From NCBI RefSeq assembly GCF_902168435.1, contig NZ_LR656188.1, forward strand, positions 1 to 43,279: a DNA stretch of 43,279 nt, given 5' to 3'. This stretch comes from Bacillus marasmi (lineage in GTDB: Bacteria > Bacillota > Bacilli > Bacillales > Cytobacillaceae). Under the pieces are notes generated by a model that saw nothing but the letters and a program-made list of their open reading frames with translations, searched no databases and was not told the DNA's origin. Below are positions 1 to 43,279 of this stretch, in pieces; positions within the stretch are counted from its first letter, which is position 1, and each line of letters opens with the position of its first letter. The position numbers were made by a program, and so were the translations under genes.

Positions 1-22
1 ACTGGTAACGGCACATAAAAAC
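1..22. other. Left attachment-site end (attP half-arm)
   Basis: Positions 8-22 read ACGGCACATAAAAAC and recur as a perfect inverted copy at 43258-43272. The window begins with AC and ends with AC. Joining the ends gives 15-bp arm, 5 bp, AC, 5 bp, 15-bp arm, an exactly symmetric 42-bp site. Attachment sites of large serine integrases are imperfect dyads around a 2-bp crossover core. I infer that this is the phage half of attL and that base 1 lies at the crossover. The arm overlaps the last bases of the integrase gene, as is usual for such phages. Confidence 0.75.
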
Positions 23-1437
23 TAATAGAATTCGACATCAGTAATCACGACTAACCCTTTACCTTTCTTATTTCTATAATTTTTTGGCTTAGTTGGAGTG
101 ACTACAAAATGAATACGTCGGATAAATCGAGCGATAAAACTTTTCTTTTCATCTCTAGTCAAATAGCTAAAAGTTTGATTAAAAGTAAATACGATTTCTT
201 TTAAGGCTTCAACGTCAATTGGATCGTTATCTTTTAAACCATTTAATTGGCTTTTGACGGATTCGTAAGGTTCTAGCGTTTCATCCATCAGGCTATCGAA
301 TTCTTTATCCATCATCTTCCCAGCAGCCCATGCGCGTTGGTAGTTAGCGCGTATTCTCTCTATTTGCTCGAGTTGTTTCTCTAAAACGGCTTTTTTATCA
401 TCAACTGGATTAGGTTGAGGAATATTTTTAAACTCAACATGCTTCATATACTCGAGCAAAGCATCCGTAAAGCGCTGCTCACCAACACTTATCATTTTAC
501 GGCCTTCTCGCCAGCATTCTTGGCATTTATATATGGATCCTTGATACTCTGATCCGTCTTTTCGTTTTCTTAGGTATCGATTTACTGATAAGATATGACC
601 ACAAGTTGGGCAGTTAAGCACGCCTTGGAACAGGTATTCGTTCTCCACGTCTCGGTTATGGTGTGCAGCTCGGTCATCAAGAACCAACTGCAGCTTTTCA
701 AATTCTTTTTTAGTGATGATACCTGTGTGAGTTCCTTCATAAATCTTATCGTTCCATTTTGTAGCACCGTAAAGCGCAGGATTGCGTAGCACTCGTAACA
801 CGCTGTTCGCTCTCCAATTCCTTTCGCCATTGGTTACATTTAAAAACTCGGCTAAACGGTTTGCAGTCATTCCTGATTTAACCTTGTCTACCATATCAAG
901 AACAATTTCAGCTTTCTCATTAGCGACTAGCTTTTCCTTCTCATCCAAATCAAAACCATACGGAATTGCGCCGACACGTTCTCCTCCAGAAACTTTTTCT
1001 TCGAGAGCCATTTTGACGCGCTCTGAAAGGTTCTCAGCCTCCCATTGAGCGAGTAAAGCAACTAACCCGATGAACATTTTACCCATCGCGCTGGATGTGT
1101 CATATGGTTCAGTCGCTGATCTAAAAGTGCAGCTGTTGTTTTTGAAATCATCTAATAGAGTGTATAAGTCCTTTACTCTCCTGGTCAATCGGTCAAGGCG
1201 GTATACTAGCACGGTTGAGATTAGTTTTTTCTTAACGTCTCCCAGCATTTTTTGCAACTCTGGACGGTTCAAATCCTTTGCAGACACACCCTCATCGATG
1301 TAAAATTTATAATCTGTCCAGCCTAACGCTGTGCAATAGGCAATAAGACGTTCTTTTTGAGCTGGAATAGAATAACCTTCCTTTGCCTGCTCTTGCGTAC
1401 TAACACGGATATAAATTCCGATAGTCATGTTACTCAT
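22..1437 (-). CDS. int: Large serine recombinase (phage integrase)
   Basis: Catalyses integration at an att site and, with a directionality factor, excision. The 471-residue protein has an N-terminal resolvase domain with the nucleophile Ser13 in IRVSTQEQ and the arginine cluster YRLDRLTR (79-86). A recombinase domain follows at about 155-260. The zinc ribbon uses Cys276, Cys279, Cys305 and Cys308, and a Lys/Glu-rich coiled coil spans about 345-400. Size and order match the A118/TP901-1/phiC31 class. The first ATG lies only 1 nt from the AGAGAGG ribosome site; the second ATG (Met4, 1426-1428) has better spacing and may be the true start. The stop is about 20 nt from the inferred att core. Family call is firm; the exact start is not. 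Confidence 0.96.
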   Translation of the reverse strand: MSNMTIGIYIRVSTQEQAKEGYSIPAQKERLIAYCTALGWTDYKFYIDEGVSAKDLNRPELQKMLGDVKKKLISTVLVYRLDRLTRRVKDLYTLLDDFKNNSCTFRSATEPYDTSSAMGKMFIGLVALLAQWEAENLSERVKMALEEKVSGGERVGAIPYGFDLDEKEKLVANEKAEIVLDMVDKVKSGMTANRLAEFLNVTNGERNWRANSVLRVLRNPALYGATKWNDKIYEGTHTGIITKKEFEKLQLVLDDRAAHHNRDVENEYLFQGVLNCPTCGHILSVNRYLRKRKDGSEYQGSIYKCQECWREGRKMISVGEQRFTDALLEYMKHVEFKNIPQPNPVDDKKAVLEKQLEQIERIRANYQRAWAAGKMMDKEFDSLMDETLEPYESVKSQLNGLKDNDPIDVEALKEIVFTFNQTFSYLTRDEKKSFIARFIRRIHFVVTPTKPKNYRNKKGKGLVVITDVEFY

Positions 1438-37266: not shown

Positions 37267-38259
37267 TTGGCAAACGACACAGCCAGACTTGCTAACGATT
37301 TAAAAGTAACCGTGAGCACTTTGGTACCTGACGTCGAGATGATGAAACTGGAAGTAAGACTTGAGGAAGTGTTGAGCAACTACGAAATTACAAGAAGGTC
37401 TGAGAAGGACATCGAGAATGATTTTGCGGATAAGATTGATATTTATCTAGCAGCTCGGAAAATTGAGGGGTTATCAGAGATCACGTTGTCTGGGTATCGA
37501 AATGATTTAGCGTTGTTCTCCGCATATGTAAATAAGGCGGTTGTCCAGGTTACAACATCAGATATACGGAAGTATCTAGCCAGTAATAGCAAGTGGATGA
37601 TGAGCACTGTGGAATCTAAACTGTCTAAGTTAAAAACATTTTTCGGGTGGATGGTAAAAGAGGAAATGTTGTTGCGCGATCCATCTGCAAAGATTAACCC
37701 GCCTAAAAAGCCGAAAAGATTACCAAAAGGCCTAACGATTGAAGAACTTGAGATTGTTCGAGATTCGTGCAAAAGCCTACGCGAAAGGGCGATTATGGAG
37801 GTGATGTATAGCACAGGATGCCGTTTGTCAGAGATTAGAAACATGAAAGTATCTGATATTAATAGCCAAGAAATGTCCATGCACGTAATCGGAAAAGGTG
37901 ATAAAGAAAGAATCGTTTACCTGTCCATCAAGTCCATGCACCAGCTGAGAAAGTATTTAAAAAGCAGAAATGATGATTGTGAATATCTATTCGCAACGGA
38001 GCGCAGACCAATTAGACAGATGTCGGGGCGTGCCATCGAAAGAATTGTTGAAAAAATACAATCACGTGCAAAGCTTTCAAAGAAACTTACACCTCACGTA
38101 TTCAGACATACAACGGCCACGCTCATGATGGAAAATGGAGCAGACCTTGCAGACGTGCAACATATTTTAGGTCATGAGCAGCCGTCTACAACGATGATAT
38201 ATGCACATGTTTCTGAAGAACGGAAGAAACAGGCACATAAGAAATTTCATGTTCAATAA
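37267..38259 (+). CDS. Tyrosine recombinase (XerC/D-like)
   Basis: 330 residues; TTG start after GGGAGATGGAG. All catalytic residues are present: Arg186 (STGCRLSEIRN), Lys210 (GKGDKERIVY), His277 and Arg280 (TPHVFRHTTATL), His303 (LGHEQ) and Tyr312 (TTMIYAHV). A SAM-like N-terminal domain spans about 50-140, preceded by about 45 extra charged residues. It is separate from the serine integrase and lies between receptor-binding and lysis genes with its own RHH repressor and promoter. Possible roles: multimer resolution, DNA inversion or mobilisation; I cannot tell which. Confidence 0.93.
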   Translation: MANDTARLANDLKVTVSTLVPDVEMMKLEVRLEEVLSNYEITRRSEKDIENDFADKIDIYLAARKIEGLSEITLSGYRNDLALFSAYVNKAVVQVTTSDIRKYLASNSKWMMSTVESKLSKLKTFFGWMVKEEMLLRDPSAKINPPKKPKRLPKGLTIEELEIVRDSCKSLRERAIMEVMYSTGCRLSEIRNMKVSDINSQEMSMHVIGKGDKERIVYLSIKSMHQLRKYLKSRNDDCEYLFATERRPIRQMSGRAIERIVEKIQSRAKLSKKLTPHVFRHTTATLMMENGADLADVQHILGHEQPSTTMIYAHVSEERKKQAHKKFHVQ

Positions 38260-38307: not shown

Positions 38308-38715
38308 TTGAAACATAACACAGACACACTTTACTCATCAATCGTAGGAGGAGGGACTGTCGTTACGTCGTACCTACTCGGGGGGTTTGACCAATTGATA
38401 CTGGCTTACTTTGTTTTAATGGCATCTGATTATTTAACTGGCATCCTCTCTGGTTTTTATACAAAAAGTATCAGTTCGAAAACTGCAGCAAAGGGATTGC
38501 TTAAAAAAGGCGCTATGATAGTGCTTGTTATCGTAGCTAACCAGCTGGACATTGTGACTGGCAGCGGAGACGTAGCACGTAACGGCATGATTATGTTTCT
38601 AATCGGTCTTGAGGGTATCAGCATTTTTGAGAATTTAGGGAAAATGGGTGTTAAAGTTCCAACTTTCTTATCACAAGCATTTTCACAACTTAAAGATAAA
38701 GGGGATGGCAAGTAA
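38308..38715 (+). CDS. Holin (Phage_holin_4 type)
   Basis: 135 residues; TTG start after AGGAGATGG. Three hydrophobic spans (about 13-40, 66-80 and 90-105) with the family motif ASDYLTGILSGFYTKSISSK followed by TAAKGLLKKGAMIVLVIVAN. Forms pores that release the endolysin at a set time. Directly upstream of the lysin gene, overlapping its start (TAATG). Confidence 0.9.
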   Translation: MKHNTDTLYSSIVGGGTVVTSYLLGGFDQLILAYFVLMASDYLTGILSGFYTKSISSKTAAKGLLKKGAMIVLVIVANQLDIVTGSGDVARNGMIMFLIGLEGISIFENLGKMGVKVPTFLSQAFSQLKDKGDGK

Positions 38716-39767
38716 TGGGTAAAATCATCGACATTTCACACCACCAAGTACCAAGTAATATTAACTATGACGAGTTAGCTAAGCACGTTGACCTTGCTAT
38801 TATACGCACTCAATATGGCTCAAAAACTATCGACAAGCACTATAAAACACACCATGCCGAATTTAGAAAACGTGGCGTACCAACCCAAGCATATGCGTGG
38901 GTAAGAGGCGTAAGCATTGCTGATATGGAAGTTGAGGCTACAGATTTTTATAATCGCACCAAAGAGTTTAGTCCAGAAGTGTATTGGCTTGATGTGGAAG
39001 AGAAATCAATGTCTGATATGCGAGCTGGTGTATCAGCGTACATTAAAAAACTCCGTGAATTAGGAGCTAAAAAAGTTGGAGTGTATATCGCACACCATCT
39101 ATTCACAAGCTTTCATTTGGATTTATCGGAAGCTGATGCAGTTTGGATTCCTCACTACGGCAAAAATAACGGGGATTTGAACAGTAAGCCTGCTTATCCG
39201 TGTGACTTGCACCAATATACAAGTGTTGGTCGTATCCCAGGCTATGATGGTAATCTTGATATCAATATTTTGACTGGCAGCAAACCGTTAGATTGGTTCA
39301 CGGGCGAACAAGTAGCAGCTGCACCTCAACCGACTACAGCTCATCCGAATAATGATGCTTATATGCACATCGTTGTAAAAGGCGATACATTGAGCGCTAT
39401 TGCTACAAAATACGGCCTTACTGTCGGATACATTGCAAATCTAAACGGGATTGAAAATCCTAATAAGATTTATCCTGGCCAACGTTTGATGTTGAAAGGA
39501 AATATTCCTGTTCAAACACAACCAGCAGCAAAAAGAACAATCCATCTTCCAGCTACGGCGTCAACGTGGACAGTTTACAAGCTTAATAGACCAGCAGTTA
39601 AGGCTAATCCTTCCAACATTGCCGGAACGCTTAAACCATCGAAATTCGGTGGTTTATCATATGAAATCTTAAAAGATCTTGGCGGTTGGGTTTTTGAAAT
39701 CCAAACTGCTAATTTTGGACGTGTTAAAATCTACGGACATCCTAGCACTGGTGCGATTGTAAAGTAA
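38715..39767 (+). CDS. Endolysin: GH25 muramidase + LysM + SH3-like domain
   Basis: 350 residues. GH25 lysozyme domain 1-195 with Asp6 (IIDISHHQ) and the catalytic pair Asp93/Glu95 in YWLDVEEKS. LysM domain at about 217-262 (YMHIVVKGDTLSAIATKYGL, ending YPGQRLMLKG). A C-terminal SH3-like wall-binding domain covers about 280-350 (STWTVYKLNRPAVKANPSNI). No signal peptide, so it needs the holin. Domain layout is typical for lysins of Bacillales phages. Confidence 0.94.
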   Translation: MGKIIDISHHQVPSNINYDELAKHVDLAIIRTQYGSKTIDKHYKTHHAEFRKRGVPTQAYAWVRGVSIADMEVEATDFYNRTKEFSPEVYWLDVEEKSMSDMRAGVSAYIKKLRELGAKKVGVYIAHHLFTSFHLDLSEADAVWIPHYGKNNGDLNSKPAYPCDLHQYTSVGRIPGYDGNLDINILTGSKPLDWFTGEQVAAAPQPTTAHPNNDAYMHIVVKGDTLSAIATKYGLTVGYIANLNGIENPNKIYPGQRLMLKGNIPVQTQPAAKRTIHLPATASTWTVYKLNRPAVKANPSNIAGTLKPSKFGGLSYEILKDLGGWVFEIQTANFGRVKIYGHPSTGAIVK

Positions 39768-39809: not shown

Positions 39810-40340
39810 TTACCAGTTACCTGTAGCAACACCAAACTCTTTAACTTCTGGAACCATTGAATCGATTGTAGATGCAGCTAAAACTAGCTTTATCATTGGT
39901 TCGGTATCATTCGGAGTAAAATCCTCTTTATTAACAGTTATTTGTGCAATTTTAATATCACCTTGTTTAACAGCAATCGTTACGGTTTTTGCGCCGTCCA
40001 AATCAGCTTGTTGTATAAAATTATATGTCTGATTGAATACGTGTTGAGTGGCTAATCCAGGTGTTACTTTTTCACTCATATGTACAAAAACGGTGATATG
40101 TTGAGTAATATCTCTCGCGTCTGTTACTTCAACTTTTTTAGCATAGGCAAAAACAGAAGTGTTAATCTTCGCTTCTTCCTTTTTCGGGGCATCTTTTTTC
40201 TTTGATTCTTCTTTTTTCTCCGAGGACTTTTTCTCTTTAACCTGTTCAGTTTTTTCTTTTGGATCTTCCTTTACAACTTCATCTGATCCACAGGCTGCTA
40301 AAAATAAAGCAGCAAAACACAACAAAAATAATTTCTTCAT
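39810..40340 (-). CDS. Prophage-encoded lipoprotein
   Basis: 176 residues with a lipoprotein signal peptide: MKK, hydrophobic LFLLCFAALFL, lipobox L14-A15-A16-C17. After Cys17 comes a Lys/Glu-rich flexible spacer to about residue 57, then a globular beta-rich domain (ITQHITVFVHMSEKVTPGLA, AKTVTIAVKQGDIKIAQITV). ATG follows AGGAGGAATT. Lies on the opposite strand to the lytic genes, so it is probably made in the lysogen. Such lipoproteins can block superinfection or alter the surface; the target is unknown. Confidence 0.85.
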   Translation of the reverse strand: MKKLFLLCFAALFLAACGSDEVVKEDPKEKTEQVKEKKSSEKKEESKKKDAPKKEEAKINTSVFAYAKKVEVTDARDITQHITVFVHMSEKVTPGLATQHVFNQTYNFIQQADLDGAKTVTIAVKQGDIKIAQITVNKEDFTPNDTEPMIKLVLAASTIDSMVPEVKEFGVATGNW

Positions 40341-40401: not shown

Positions 40402-40427
40402 AAAAAGAGCCCCTTATGCGGGAGCTC
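40402..40427 (-). terminator. Terminator after the HTH gene
   Basis: On the minus strand GAGCTCCC-GCATAA-GGGGCTC with a bulged T, then TTTTTATT. It overlaps the stop codon of the HTH gene and separates it from the lipoprotein gene. Confidence 0.75.
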
Positions 40428-40656
40428 ACATCCAAAAATCATCGTAATCTACGCTATGACCTACTTTCTTTAGTGCTTTCAGAATCTTATTTGCTGTGGA
40501 TCCATTTGGTTTGGCATCTGATTCACTGCATAATCGACTAACAGTACCTTTACTCACTTTAGCGTTATCCTCTACCCACTTTTGGGAAATTCCCCTTCTA
40601 TCTAACCATTTTCCAAACTTACTTCTATCCTTACCTAGTCCAAAAAAGCTAAACAT
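40426..40656 (-). CDS. Small HTH (XRE-like) regulator
   Basis: 76 residues. Helix-turn-helix GISQKWVEDNAKVSKGTVSR at about 23-42, with KFGKWLDRRG before it. GAGGTGTG ribosome site. Single-gene unit on the minus strand, divergent from the FtsK-like operon; it most likely controls that operon and itself through sites in the 275-bp repeat-rich gap. Distinct from the CI-like repressor at the left end. Confidence 0.82.
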   Translation of the reverse strand: MFSFFGLGKDRSKFGKWLDRRGISQKWVEDNAKVSKGTVSRLCSESDAKPNGSTANKILKALKKVGHSVDYDDFWM

Positions 40657-40749
40657 TTTTCACACCTCGTCATATGTATTTAGCCTAGTTTTGTCCTAAA
40701 GTTCAATTTTTTATACCTTTTCGGATAATTAATTTGGAATATCGTACAA

Positions 40750-40797
40750 ACAGTATCAAATACACTTTACTATACAGTATCAAATACGCTTCACTAT
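40750..40797. repeat. 24-bp tandem direct repeat
   Basis: Two abutting copies, 40750-40773 and 40774-40797, both beginning ACAGTATCAAATAC and ending ACTAT, with two transitions between them. Iteron-like; likely protein-binding. Confidence 0.9.
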
Positions 40798-40824
40798 TCG
40801 CTTTCAAAGTCGCTACATGCACAC

Positions 40825-40844
40825 TATCACGTATTATCACGTAT
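40825..40844. repeat. 10-bp tandem direct repeat
   Basis: TATCACGTAT occurs twice in direct succession (40825-40834, 40835-40844), exact. One helical turn apart, as for cooperative protein binding. Confidence 0.9.
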
Positions 40845-40931
40845 CTACTGCCTCAATGGATTGATCGACATTTTTATAATTCGTTTTCAAGTAAACTATT
40901 TATCAATAGATAAATGAAAGAAGGTGGTGGG

Positions 40932-42242
40932 ATGCTCTTTGAAATTGCGTCAGCAACAATGTTTGGTGGTTTAGCTGGATTAGCATTTTTAAAAAAGTCT
41001 GCTCTCGTCAACGATGCCGAAAAAATCCAAAAAATTTGTTATAACTGCAAGCTAACGGTAAAAGAGAACGGCGATATTAAAACTATCCAGCTGCACCGAA
41101 AGGAGAAGCATGATTGGGGAACAGAGTACGTTTACAGGATTCCACTGGGACTATCTTTCTCAGATTTTGAAGGCAAGCTGGACCACATTCGTGATGGCTT
41201 GAACAATAAGAAAACCTATATCGATTTTAAACGGTTTTTACAATTAAACTTTGAAACTAATTTGCTGACACAGATAAGAGACATCTTCCAAACGCGAAGT
41301 AGCGTACATCAAAAAGACGTCGAGCTTGAGTTCGATGGTATGCTGCGAGTAAAAGTACTTTGTAATGACCTTCCAACTAATCTTCTATTTGATGAGACAA
41401 TGCTTGATGAATGTTCCAACTGGGAGATACCTCTCGGGCAAACTCGTTATGGTTTCATCACGCATGATCTTGAGCAAGGACATATCACGTTAGCAGGAGC
41501 CACACGTAAAGGTAAAACTGTTCTTCTAAAACTAATCATTTCGACTGTTATCCATCAGAATCCAGAGCACGTCAAATTATCGCTGATTGACCTTAAAGGT
41601 GGTTTAGCCTTCACACGTTTTAAAAACGCGAAACAAGTTGAGTCTGTGGCCACAGACTTGGAGAGTGCGCTTGAAGTGTTAACTAAAGTTAAAAACGAAA
41701 TGAAAGAAACAGAAAGGGAGTTTGATCAGAATGGATGCGAGGACATTAAAGAAGCTGGCATTCGCACTCGACATATCATTGTGGTTGATGAAGCAGCACA
41801 AATCTCGCCCAACATCGTCACGGGGAAAGATAAAAAGGAAAAAGCGAAGCAGTGCGAAGAAGCGCTCTCGGAAATAGCGCGAATCGGTGCAGGCTTAGGT
41901 TACAGGTTGATCTATTGCTCCCAGTACCCAAAAGCCGAGGTGATGAATGCTCAAATCAAACAAAACTGCGATACGGTCATCACTTATAAATTGCGTGACG
42001 CTGTAGCCTCTAGGGTAGTGCTTGATGAGTCGGGAGCAGAATCCTTGCCAATACCAGGTCGTGCTATTTATAAGACGCCTGATGGCACACAGATTGTGCA
42101 AACACCTTTTATCGATAACGATCAAATTGATAAGTTGATCAAACCTCATATTGTGATTCGACCACGAAAGGAGCAGAGGGAAAGTGACATTGGAGAAAGA
42201 AAGACGAGAAGAAGCGATACTTTTGAGCTTACGGAAATGTGA
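40932..42242 (+). CDS. FtsK/SpoIIIE-like DNA translocase ATPase
   Basis: 436 residues from ATG 40932 (AAGGTGGTGGG upstream; ATG 40914 has none). One short hydrophobic N-terminal segment (IASATMFGGLAGLAFL) could anchor it in the membrane. The RecA-like motor has Walker A GATRKGKT (189-196) and Walker B HIIVVDEA (Asp286, Glu287), with a preceding LSLIDLKGGLAF. Size and layout resemble the ICE coupling protein ConQ/YdcQ more than chromosomal FtsK, which has four spans and a gamma domain. Overlaps the Replic_Relax gene by 59 nt. Similar genes occur, as I recall, in B. anthracis W-beta/gamma-type phages. Confidence 0.88.
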   Translation: MLFEIASATMFGGLAGLAFLKKSALVNDAEKIQKICYNCKLTVKENGDIKTIQLHRKEKHDWGTEYVYRIPLGLSFSDFEGKLDHIRDGLNNKKTYIDFKRFLQLNFETNLLTQIRDIFQTRSSVHQKDVELEFDGMLRVKVLCNDLPTNLLFDETMLDECSNWEIPLGQTRYGFITHDLEQGHITLAGATRKGKTVLLKLIISTVIHQNPEHVKLSLIDLKGGLAFTRFKNAKQVESVATDLESALEVLTKVKNEMKETEREFDQNGCEDIKEAGIRTRHIIVVDEAAQISPNIVTGKDKKEKAKQCEEALSEIARIGAGLGYRLIYCSQYPKAEVMNAQIKQNCDTVITYKLRDAVASRVVLDESGAESLPIPGRAIYKTPDGTQIVQTPFIDNDQIDKLIKPHIVIRPRKEQRESDIGERKTRRSDTFELTEM

Positions 42243-42765
42243 TTTTTTATCAAGGGAACAATTGCAAAAAATGCACGAACTTGGTCAGACTCGAAATGCT
42301 CAACGTGTGCTCGGTAACATGAGTGAATACCTGTCATATTTCACCGAGGAAAGGAAAAAAGTGTATTATTTGAACGCAGCTGGCCGTGAACGTGTGCAAG
42401 CTGAGAAGGTGAGAAAAAAGACGGTTCAGGTGAATCACTTTCTTATGAGAAACGATCTATTCATCGCAAAGGGAAAACCATCTACCTGGAAGAATGAAGT
42501 AAAAATATCCATCCCTAATTCCTCTTTATCGCTTGTAGCTGATGCGGTCTACACTTCTAACAAACTCCACCATTTTGTTGAGGTCGATTATAAACAAGCC
42601 ATGTCCCAGAACACAGAAAAAATTAAGAGATATAAAGAGTTATATACGTTTAATCCTCAGTTTGTGCTTGTGTGGGTAACGACAACACCGTACCGTAAGA
42701 AACGCTTAGAGGCACTGTGCGAAGGTCTTAAATGCCAGGTGTATTTGTGGGATGACATTAAATAG
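42184..42765 (+). CDS. Replication-relaxation family protein
   Basis: 193 residues; GTG start. N-terminal winged-helix region (REEAILLSLRKCDFLSREQL, RNAQRVLGNMSEYL) and a C-terminal part reminiscent of a PD-(D/E)XK fold (LVADAVYT; HHFVEVDYKQ; TEKIKRYKELY). Replic_Relax proteins are found on plasmids and ICEs beside FtsK-like ATPases, and are thought to bind or nick an origin. Coupled to the ATPase gene. Relaxase activity is not shown by the sequence: no HUH motif or tyrosine signature is seen. Confidence 0.82.
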   Translation: MTLEKERREEAILLSLRKCDFLSREQLQKMHELGQTRNAQRVLGNMSEYLSYFTEERKKVYYLNAAGRERVQAEKVRKKTVQVNHFLMRNDLFIAKGKPSTWKNEVKISIPNSSLSLVADAVYTSNKLHHFVEVDYKQAMSQNTEKIKRYKELYTFNPQFVLVWVTTTPYRKKRLEALCEGLKCQVYLWDDIK

Positions 42766-42776
42766 GAGGGCACAAC

Positions 42777-43238
42777 ATGAGAACGCAAGCTATGTCTATT
42801 AAAGATTTTATGTCTGGCGGATATAGGGAGAGGGATAGAGCAAAGAAGGAACGATTCCATGACAAACTTGACAAAATTGGAAAGCTAGGGGCAGGGTTAG
42901 CCCTTCCTTTGGCTTTCGGTTCTCCAATAGGTGCGGTTTTGGGTGCGTCAAGAGCGTTTGCTGCATCTCCAGAAGCAATTCCCGCAACGGCAACGGCTGC
43001 CATCGGCGAAAAGTCGCTTGAAATAATCGCTCATGCACTAGATCCAGTTGTCGAGCTGCTCGTTGCCATTAGTTTTCCGATTGCATCGATTATCATTGTT
43101 GGAGCTTGTTTCTTCTTCATGTTTGGCATGAATGACCGTGGGTGGAGTGTGATGATGAATTGCGGATTAGGATATGTTCTCATCCAGCTATCGCCTTTAA
43201 TCTTAAACATCCTCAAGCAAGTCGGAAATGCTATATAA
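42777..43238 (+). CDS. VirB2/TrbC-like membrane protein
   Basis: 153 residues. A basic head of about 36 residues precedes a hydrophobic stretch (37-60) ending in A-F-A (60-62), a possible signal peptidase site. Two membrane helices follow (about 91-118 and 124-149) joined by the short loop NDRGWS. A long leader plus two helices and a tiny loop is the layout of VirB2/TrbC pilin-like proteins. Alternatively a simple membrane partner for the FtsK-like ATPase. TAGGAGG ribosome site. Last gene before the attachment end. Confidence 0.65.
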   Translation: MRTQAMSIKDFMSGGYRERDRAKKERFHDKLDKIGKLGAGLALPLAFGSPIGAVLGASRAFAASPEAIPATATAAIGEKSLEIIAHALDPVVELLVAISFPIASIIIVGACFFFMFGMNDRGWSVMMNCGLGYVLIQLSPLILNILKQVGNAI

Positions 43239-43257: not shown

Positions 43258-43279
43258 GTTTTTATGTGCCGTCCTCTAC
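43258..43279. other. Right attachment-site end (attP half-arm)
   Basis: GTTTTTATGTGCCGT at 43258-43272 is the exact reverse complement of 8-22. It is followed by CCTCT and the terminal AC. With the left end it forms a dyad centred on AC, as described there. Inferred to be the phage half of attR. Confidence 0.75.

Follow-up and report, generated by a model that had tools for sequence, protein, structure and literature searches.

A conserved cis element covaries with the Replic_Relax protein of a conjugation-like module in a Bacillus marasmi prophage and related phages

The Pfam domain PF13814 (Replic_Relax, here RR) is listed as the MobC relaxase domain in the available text of PMC5357655, and the MOBC relaxase TraX binds direct repeats 70 to 120 bp from nic, according to the available text of PMC12857230. 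In integrative and conjugative elements (ICEs) and integrative and mobilizable elements (IMEs) of the TcpA type, the tcpA gene lies directly upstream of a relaxase-like gene (PMC5357655, available text). A phage operon with related genes has already been noted in print: two Andromedavirus phages, Novomoskovsk and Bolokhovo, were judged probably virulent, and the genes were taken as the trace of a lost plasmid-prophage stage (PMC9658697, available text). Here, we analyze a stretch of 43,279 nucleotides from Bacillus marasmi (RefSeq assembly GCF_902168435.1, contig NZ_LR656188.1), referred to as the window, which ends in a block encoding an FtsK-like translocase, an RR protein, and a small membrane protein. 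The protein families are known. What is new is a conserved cis element upstream of the translocase gene, whose specificity covaries with the recognition helix of the RR protein.

The locus shares with the MOBC relaxases pAD1 TraX and CloDF13 MobC the Pfam domain, the predicted PD-(D/E)XK fold, and possibly an array of direct repeats distant from the presumed nic. It differs in that its RR protein is found in phages, has 193 residues, and is accompanied by a hairpin with GGTGG, the likeness being one of PF13814 and predicted fold. The translocase has its best solved-structure match over residues 82 to 423 in 6o1z, which we take to be TcpA of the conjugative plasmid pCW3; TcpA proteins also occur in elements of the Tn916/ICEBs1/ICESt3 type. 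As in TcpA-type ICEs and IMEs, the translocase gene directly precedes the relaxase-like gene. In contrast to TcpA systems, this is a phage module in which no type IV secretion system genes were found, and its partner is MOBC-type, not MOBT-type. Like IMEs, the element combines an integrase, a relaxase-like gene, a TcpA-like gene, and an oriT-like (origin-of-transfer-like) site with no mating pore of its own, but it belongs to a tailed phage that has genes for capsid, portal, terminase, tail, and lysis. The small protein resembles VirB2/TrbC pilins in its weak profile matches and, by eye, in its hydrophobic C-terminal half and long N-terminal leader, whereas it falls under both Pfam cut-offs and has no VirB4 beside it. 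The Andromedavirus operon has the same three genes in the same order, and the available text of PMC9658697 mentions no cis element. Our literature search, outside which most subscription journals lay, turned up no earlier description of the site and none of an oriT or a relaxase gene in a phage.

A conserved element upstream of the translocase gene

Judged by sequence comparison across loci, the parts of the element stand in a conserved order upstream of the translocase: repeats phased at 12 bp come first, then a copy in inverted orientation, then another next to a short hairpin whose stem sequence varies, and last GGTGG. We assessed the hairpin in 79 regions, each the 100 nt before FtsK and mutually less than 80% similar, counting perfect stems of at least 6 bp with loops of 3 to 5 nt. 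Such stems occur in 52 of the 79, against 6.6 expected and a maximum of 12 over 100 dinucleotide shuffles, and 9% of random 100-nt stretches from the same loci reach the same criterion. Among 24 genome loci outside the element definition, 16 have a stem of at least 6 bp and 8 have none (mononucleotide shuffles: mean 4.9, maximum 12). The 67 loci with located stems comprise 42 stem/loop types, indicating that pairing, and not the stem sequence, is kept. RNAalifold on a MAFFT alignment found no pairs because stem and loop lengths vary between loci; support for the hairpin comes from the shuffle test. No Rfam family exceeded its gathering score for the element. GGTGGCG or GGTGGTG follows 3 to 13 nt past the hairpin and 7 to 147 nt ahead of the start codon in 43 of the 67 loci, although GGTGG was among seven pentamers sought when the elements were located and its presence is partly by construction.

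Autocorrelation over the 67 upstream regions peaks at lag 12 (z 10.3), with z 3.4 at lag 24 and z 7.2 at lag 1; in random stretches the rise is smaller and falls at multiples of 3, an effect of codons. Columns anchored on the hairpin show a C recurring at -121, -109, -97, and -85, followed by conserved blocks near -66, -56, -41, -25, and -17 to -14. Because conserved positions recur at set distances from the hairpin, the geometry of the element is fixed across divergent phages. Among the loci listed, the best periodic stretch ends 81 to 86 bp ahead of the hairpin in 13, the window included, a spacing that may be set beside the 70 to 120 bp between the TraX repeats and nic. A motif search by expectation maximization drifted to A-rich sequence and was dropped for the anchored columns. 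Across loci only degenerate phased repeats emerge: in exact 10-mer repeats, 126 upstream regions were no richer than 3866 control windows (mean 4.3 versus 3.4 bases covered), the window of this study being the highest. Here, two 24-bp direct repeats (40750-40797, 92%) are overlapped by the 12-bp-phased sites, two 10-bp repeats lie at 40825-40844, and the inverted site, CGTAT, is at 40830 (Table 1).

We evaluated the covariation of the site within loci in the 51 of 67 loci that have an AAC/GAC anchor. The pentamer at -18 to -14 fits the repeats of its own locus better than those of other loci (3.69 versus 2.12, 0/2000 permutations), and its complement fits the inverted site near -66 of its own locus (3.84 versus 3.24, 0/2000 permutations), while a control zone shows no own-locus fit (212/1000 permutations). 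Covariation with the protein was assessed on a tree of 57 loci built without RR residues 20 to 62, with P values uncorrected for about 180 residues. The closest partner of base -14 is residue 40, with 7 joint changes of 16 and 12 (P 1.7e-4); for base -18 it is residue 41 (4 of 4 joint changes, P 1.7e-3), and for base -13 it is residue 43 (P 2.4e-3). These residues all lie in the predicted helix 36-45, by position the recognition helix, which was favored for three of the four bases tested; base -15 has no helix-linked co-change on the tree. Among pairs with at least 60% identity, loci with the same residue 40 have the same or a different base in 65 and 47 cases, compared with 9 and 10 where the residue differs. 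The nearest neighbor predicts the base better (40/57) than residue 40 alone (36/57), and the residue-40 correlation is partly phylogeny. Taken with the within-locus fits, these patterns make it likely that the RR protein binds the cis element.

The element also occurs inverted and, in one case, by itself. It points away from FtsK in locus L119 (43.5 bits with covariance model R1, minus strand). A pattern scan returned three genome-contig and six viral-contig stretches, of which eight lie before FtsK (in L209 and L210 only the FtsK start is inside the locus). The remaining one, L213 (IMGVR_UViG_3300017648_000168), has no FtsK, RR, or small-protein match. Its 13,468-bp contig has a 123-bp terminal overlap, giving a 13,345-bp circle that encodes a small terminase, a DnaD-like protein, an integrase-family recombinase, an HTH (helix-turn-helix) protein similar to that of the window, and a large structural protein with a Pfam Prophage_tail match whose best PHROG is labeled minor head protein. 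A scan of 13 of its open reading frames (ORFs) revealed no major capsid, portal, or large terminase, and a search for relatives of one of its proteins returned L213 alone. The element (46.9 bits with R1) lies between the terminase and the structural gene, oriented against both, with TTCG-type repeats by eye. L213 looks like a phage satellite with the site alone; a deletion derivative is possible.

Across 78 sources, R1 gave 22 matches with E below 0.01, a count that includes some of the rows used to train it. In 193 genomes of the host's family it also gave 22 matches: 16 by FtsK, 2 at contig ends with an FtsK start visible, and 4 apparently by chance. A further scan for stand-alone copies returned 44 stretches, with a stem at the anchor in three (L213, L272, and L294) and none in 41, and another search of the 193 genomes gave one match, L296, with an FtsK start visible. 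In genome G137, for which no RR match is listed, contigs C155 and C209 (L239 and L240) carry element copies and FtsK starts at their ends, probably a collapsed repeat missing from the assembly. The inverted copy in L119 and the stand-alone one in L213 suggest that the element is origin-like, and it resembles MOBC oriT sites in architecture.

Proteins of the block and their distribution

The first-pass annotation had placed an HTH regulator, repeats, an FtsK-like ATPase, and an RR protein in this block. All are there, the proteins with profile scores over their cut-offs. The VirB2-like membrane protein that it also named exists as a gene with a strong PHROG match, while its matches to the pilin models of Pfam are sub-threshold. 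The translocase probably starts at the conserved position 40932. Its match to 6o1z, annotated as "DNA translocase coupling protein" (E 8e-21), precedes 4nh0, "Cell division FtsK/SpoIIIE" (E 4e-16), and FtsK 2ius (E 5e-12), and the motor is nearer the coupling protein than the FtsK structures. In the available text of PMC12857230, the TcpA structure code is printed as 6OZ1.

The RR protein is modeled as a winged helix followed by a PD-(D/E)XK nuclease domain (predicted local distance difference test score, pLDDT, 97.4). Fold comparison of the whole protein listed winged helices only, and the C-terminal domain was therefore modeled separately, whereupon it matched PD-(D/E)XK nucleases. Residues E105, D120, E133, D135, and K146 are invariant across 66 sequences and may be catalytic, making the protein a candidate nickase on the basis of the model. 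A profile search against the PDB was unconvincing (best E 0.027), and a Pfam scan returned Replic_Relax and one sub-threshold GlgS match only, with no HUH or Rep_trans domain. The HTH gene is divergent from the operon and its product is a probable local repressor; of 118 non-identical triad loci, 51 have a divergent relative no more than 700 bp upstream of FtsK.

Co-occurrence of the three genes, which the first-pass annotation had proposed to look for, is borne out in viral contigs. FtsK, RR, and the small protein occur in the same order on one strand in 80 of 80 RR-seeded viral contigs, these being the best 80 of 183 confirmed RR relatives. Among 75 loci seeded with the small protein, many on the same contigs, 65 have the triad, 8 the small protein alone, 1 FtsK with the small protein, and 1 none detected. 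By tblastn, RR was found in 57 of 50,697 phage records, the small protein in 47, and the ATPase in 152, with 57 of the ATPase matches spanning more than 80% of the query. The 72,556 plasmid records yielded 11 with RR, 1 with the small protein, and 306 with the ATPase, 13 of the last spanning more than 80% of the query. Among the 193 genomes, 51 match the RR profile. The triad is present in Andromedavirus, including Novomoskovsk, which has both operon and cis site. Its presence in phages judged virulent argues against a purely lysogenic role. Palmer (Pagevirus) and two Priestia/Bacillus plasmids have FtsK and RR without a small-protein match, and pGspE55-2, a 43-kb circular record, carries the module with a serine recombinase and a LexA-type repressor.

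Several loci depart from this arrangement. The FtsK and RR parts share one open frame in L072 (4735-6576), either a natural fusion or a sequencing error. In TP-84 (L005, 7863-10402) and 055SW001 (L012, 5830-8385), the VirB2-like protein is followed by a protein of 718 to 754 aa of PHROG 5156 (unknown function), not by FtsK-RR. A small PHROG 8966 protein follows the operon in three phages without a divergent HTH match (L007, 8312-8515; L006, 8537-8764; L016, 6486-6695). This protein is labeled ParG-like in one record, and a ParG-like gene follows the triad in Novomoskovsk.

Prophage ends and neighboring genes

The window is an entire contig (C20) of a 4.64-Mb genome and is the prophage itself. 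It overlaps two other contigs by 127 bases each, its last bases matching the end of C25 and its first ones the start of C16; we take these overlaps to be a product of assembly at k=127. The C25 and C16 flanks hold the two halves of one gene, interrupted within P-loop codons: an ATPase start lies on one side, and the remainder, followed by membrane-protein and pseudopilin-like ORFs, on the other. From these ORFs, the split host gene is presumably comGA of the competence operon. The placement of the block between lysis genes and the attachment end, as first annotated, agrees with the holin and endolysin upstream, the contig overlaps, and the split comGA-like gene. Because the contig breaks phage-side of the core and both ends share AC, joined phage ends (attP, the phage attachment site) appear to be present in the sequenced DNA, and we infer that the prophage excises. 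Once it is circular, the serine integrase adjoins the FtsK-RR-small-protein operon.

Table 1. Features of the window, in order of position
Feature	Position	Strand	Evidence or detail
Large serine integrase	22..1437	-	Resolvase + Recombinase, PHROG 95
Holin + endolysin	38308-39767		Upstream of terminal operon
Xre-type HTH protein	40426..40656	-	HTH_3 23.9 bits (cut-off 23)
Repeat array	40750..40845	+	Sites ATACG/ATTCG/AGTCG at 40784, 40796, 40808, 12-bp phase
Putative hairpin-adjacent binding-site copy, ATTCG	40879..40883	+	Position -18 to -14
Hairpin	40898..40915	+	Perfect 7-bp stem, 4-nt loop, one extra T-G pair
FtsK/SpoIIIE, TcpA-like DNA translocase	40914..42242	+	PF01580 61.3 bits (cut-off 24); PHROG 1358 E 1e-104
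GGTGGTG motif	40923..40929	+	May double as ribosome-binding site in the window
RR protein, MOBC-relaxase family	42184..42765	+	PF13814 49 bits (cut-off 25.3); PHROG 2190 E 3e-60
VirB2/TrbC-like small membrane protein	42777..43238	+	PHROG 5422 E 1e-41; pilin Pfams sub-threshold
Prophage right end, core dinucleotide AC	43278..43279	.	AC also at window 1-2

Ten further ORFs of the window are phage genes by PHROG match (exonuclease, DNA polymerase, primase-helicase, helicase, large terminase, portal, major capsid, tape measure, and two tail genes), and an S24-type repressor was also identified. Inverted-repeat arms, expected of a serine-integrase attP, lie at the phage ends (GTGCCG near the right, CGGCAC near the left; L008, L009). 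Excision from the comGA-like gene might bear on competence. A second recombinase, tyrosine-type and 330 aa long, is encoded just ahead of the holin (37267-38259) in a phage that already has a serine integrase. A lipoprotein-like ORF (39810-40340, minus strand) lies between the endolysin and the HTH gene and is a possible lysogenic-conversion gene.

What the module may do

We lean, by a modest degree of belief, toward reading the block as a module derived from conjugation that processes DNA, initiates transfer, and has an origin of its own: an oriT-relaxase-coupling-protein module of phages. The conjugation-like reading of the first-pass annotation gains support from the 6o1z coupling-protein match, the MobC domain PF13814 (PMC5357655, available text), and the origin-like site beside the operon. 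In the mechanism we propose, the RR protein would bind the repeat array, the inverted copy, and the hairpin-side copy, as the covariation supports, and, given its PD-(D/E)XK domain and the example of MOBC relaxases, would nick DNA at or near the hairpin. The TcpA-like ATPase would then pick up the processed phage DNA and drive it to the membrane, with the small VirB2-like protein as its membrane partner, and the divergent HTH protein would probably keep the operon silent in the prophage. Such a module could work on any DNA bearing the site, and a site-only, satellite-like element may exploit it, as one case hints. The route may need a helper element or a pore made by the small protein, or the module may act within the infected cell, in the entry, replication, or segregation of DNA.

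Several observations weigh against the transfer-initiation reading. The window element has all parts, yet it fits R1, which was built from one stem class, poorly (17.5 bits, E 0.42), and the R1 search across the 193 genomes missed it. Ten FtsK-RR loci lack the small protein (L196-L204 and L206); six of them have no stem of at least 6 bp, and the other four have a stem and no GGTGG in the printed stretch. The simple residue-base pair tests are not decisive, and the stand-alone site is a single element, L213. The small protein scores under both pilin cut-offs (T4SS_pilin 21.5 versus 26.6 bits; TrbC 21.0 versus 27.9). There is no VirB4 among the window ORFs of at least 400 aa, all ten of which are otherwise assigned (eight, with tail, replication, and head functions, via PHROGs only). 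The host genome has no AAA_10 (VirB4) match over cut-off and one sub-threshold, and no resident mating pore is therefore seen. Given the sub-threshold VirB2 label and the absence of VirB4 in these searches, self-transmission is not supported. Moreover, some phages with the operon are judged virulent, and for these the conjugative transfer of a prophage would be meaningless.

The element could instead be a replication origin at which the RR protein is the initiator, binding the repeats and nicking or melting at the hairpin while the ATPase handles or segregates replicated DNA. PHROG 2190 is named replication initiation protein, rolling-circle origins generally consist of repeats and a hairpin as well, the site-only L213 could be replicated in trans, and the operon is present in phages judged virulent. 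We nevertheless consider this explanation unlikely: the phage itself encodes a DNA polymerase, a primase-helicase, and a helicase, the RR protein has no HUH or Rep_trans domain in Pfam, L213 has its own DnaD-like gene, and it is not obvious why an initiator should share a fixed operon with a membrane protein and a pump of the FtsK type. A purely regulatory element, an operator or leader whose repeats bind the RR or HTH protein and whose hairpin acts in the mRNA, would account for its place directly upstream of FtsK in most loci and for the HTH gene divergent in 51 of 118, and GGTGG, 7 to 14 nt from the start in 30 of 67 loci, can be a ribosome-binding site. This is improbable, since the element is inverted relative to FtsK in L119 and stands alone, opposite both neighbors, in L213; GGTGG lies 24 to 147 nt from the start in 32 of 67 loci, several of which have a separate GGAGG by eye, and no Rfam family reached its gathering score.

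Superinfection exclusion or anti-plasmid or anti-phage defence, in which nuclease and pump attack or block other site-bearing DNA, we regard as about equally doubtful. An ATPase, a nuclease, and a membrane protein at a prophage end occupy the place usual for such cargo, and site-specific sensing of incoming relatives is conceivable; against this, the phage's own genome bears the target site, the satellite-like L213 retains a site that would be costly, and the operon is kept in phages judged virulent. Defence of the lysogen, one of the roles first suggested for the block, fits poorly with operon and site in Novomoskovsk, judged virulent (PMC9658697, available text), and so does partition of a plasmid-like prophage, another such role. 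That the module is a relic of a plasmid-prophage partition or maintenance system, as read in the available text of PMC9658697, appears very improbable. The ParG-like gene in Novomoskovsk and the module on pGspE55-2 would agree with it, but the 20 ORFs of the window that were scanned, out of 134 called mechanically at 60 aa or more, include no ParA, ParM, or TubZ motor, the window phage integrates, and RR protein and site change together rather than decay.

Beyond the transfer-initiation module itself, we tentatively raise a broader idea that we hold to be possible rather than probable: that temperate and virulent phages of many kinds among the Firmicutes operate a transfer apparatus of conjugative origin (origin, MOBC-type nickase, TcpA-type double-stranded DNA pump, and membrane partner) that moves phage DNA independently of the capsid, by export, import, or delivery, and that a satellite exploits through the origin alone. 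Many phages of the Bacillus group carry genes annotated as FtsK-like or "replication-relaxation" to which no job has been assigned, and a conserved, protein-matched site of about 150 bp makes the job of the module directly testable. Should the site prove to be an origin of transfer, one mechanism would link phages with mobilizable elements and satellites, and phage DNA would have a second way to move.

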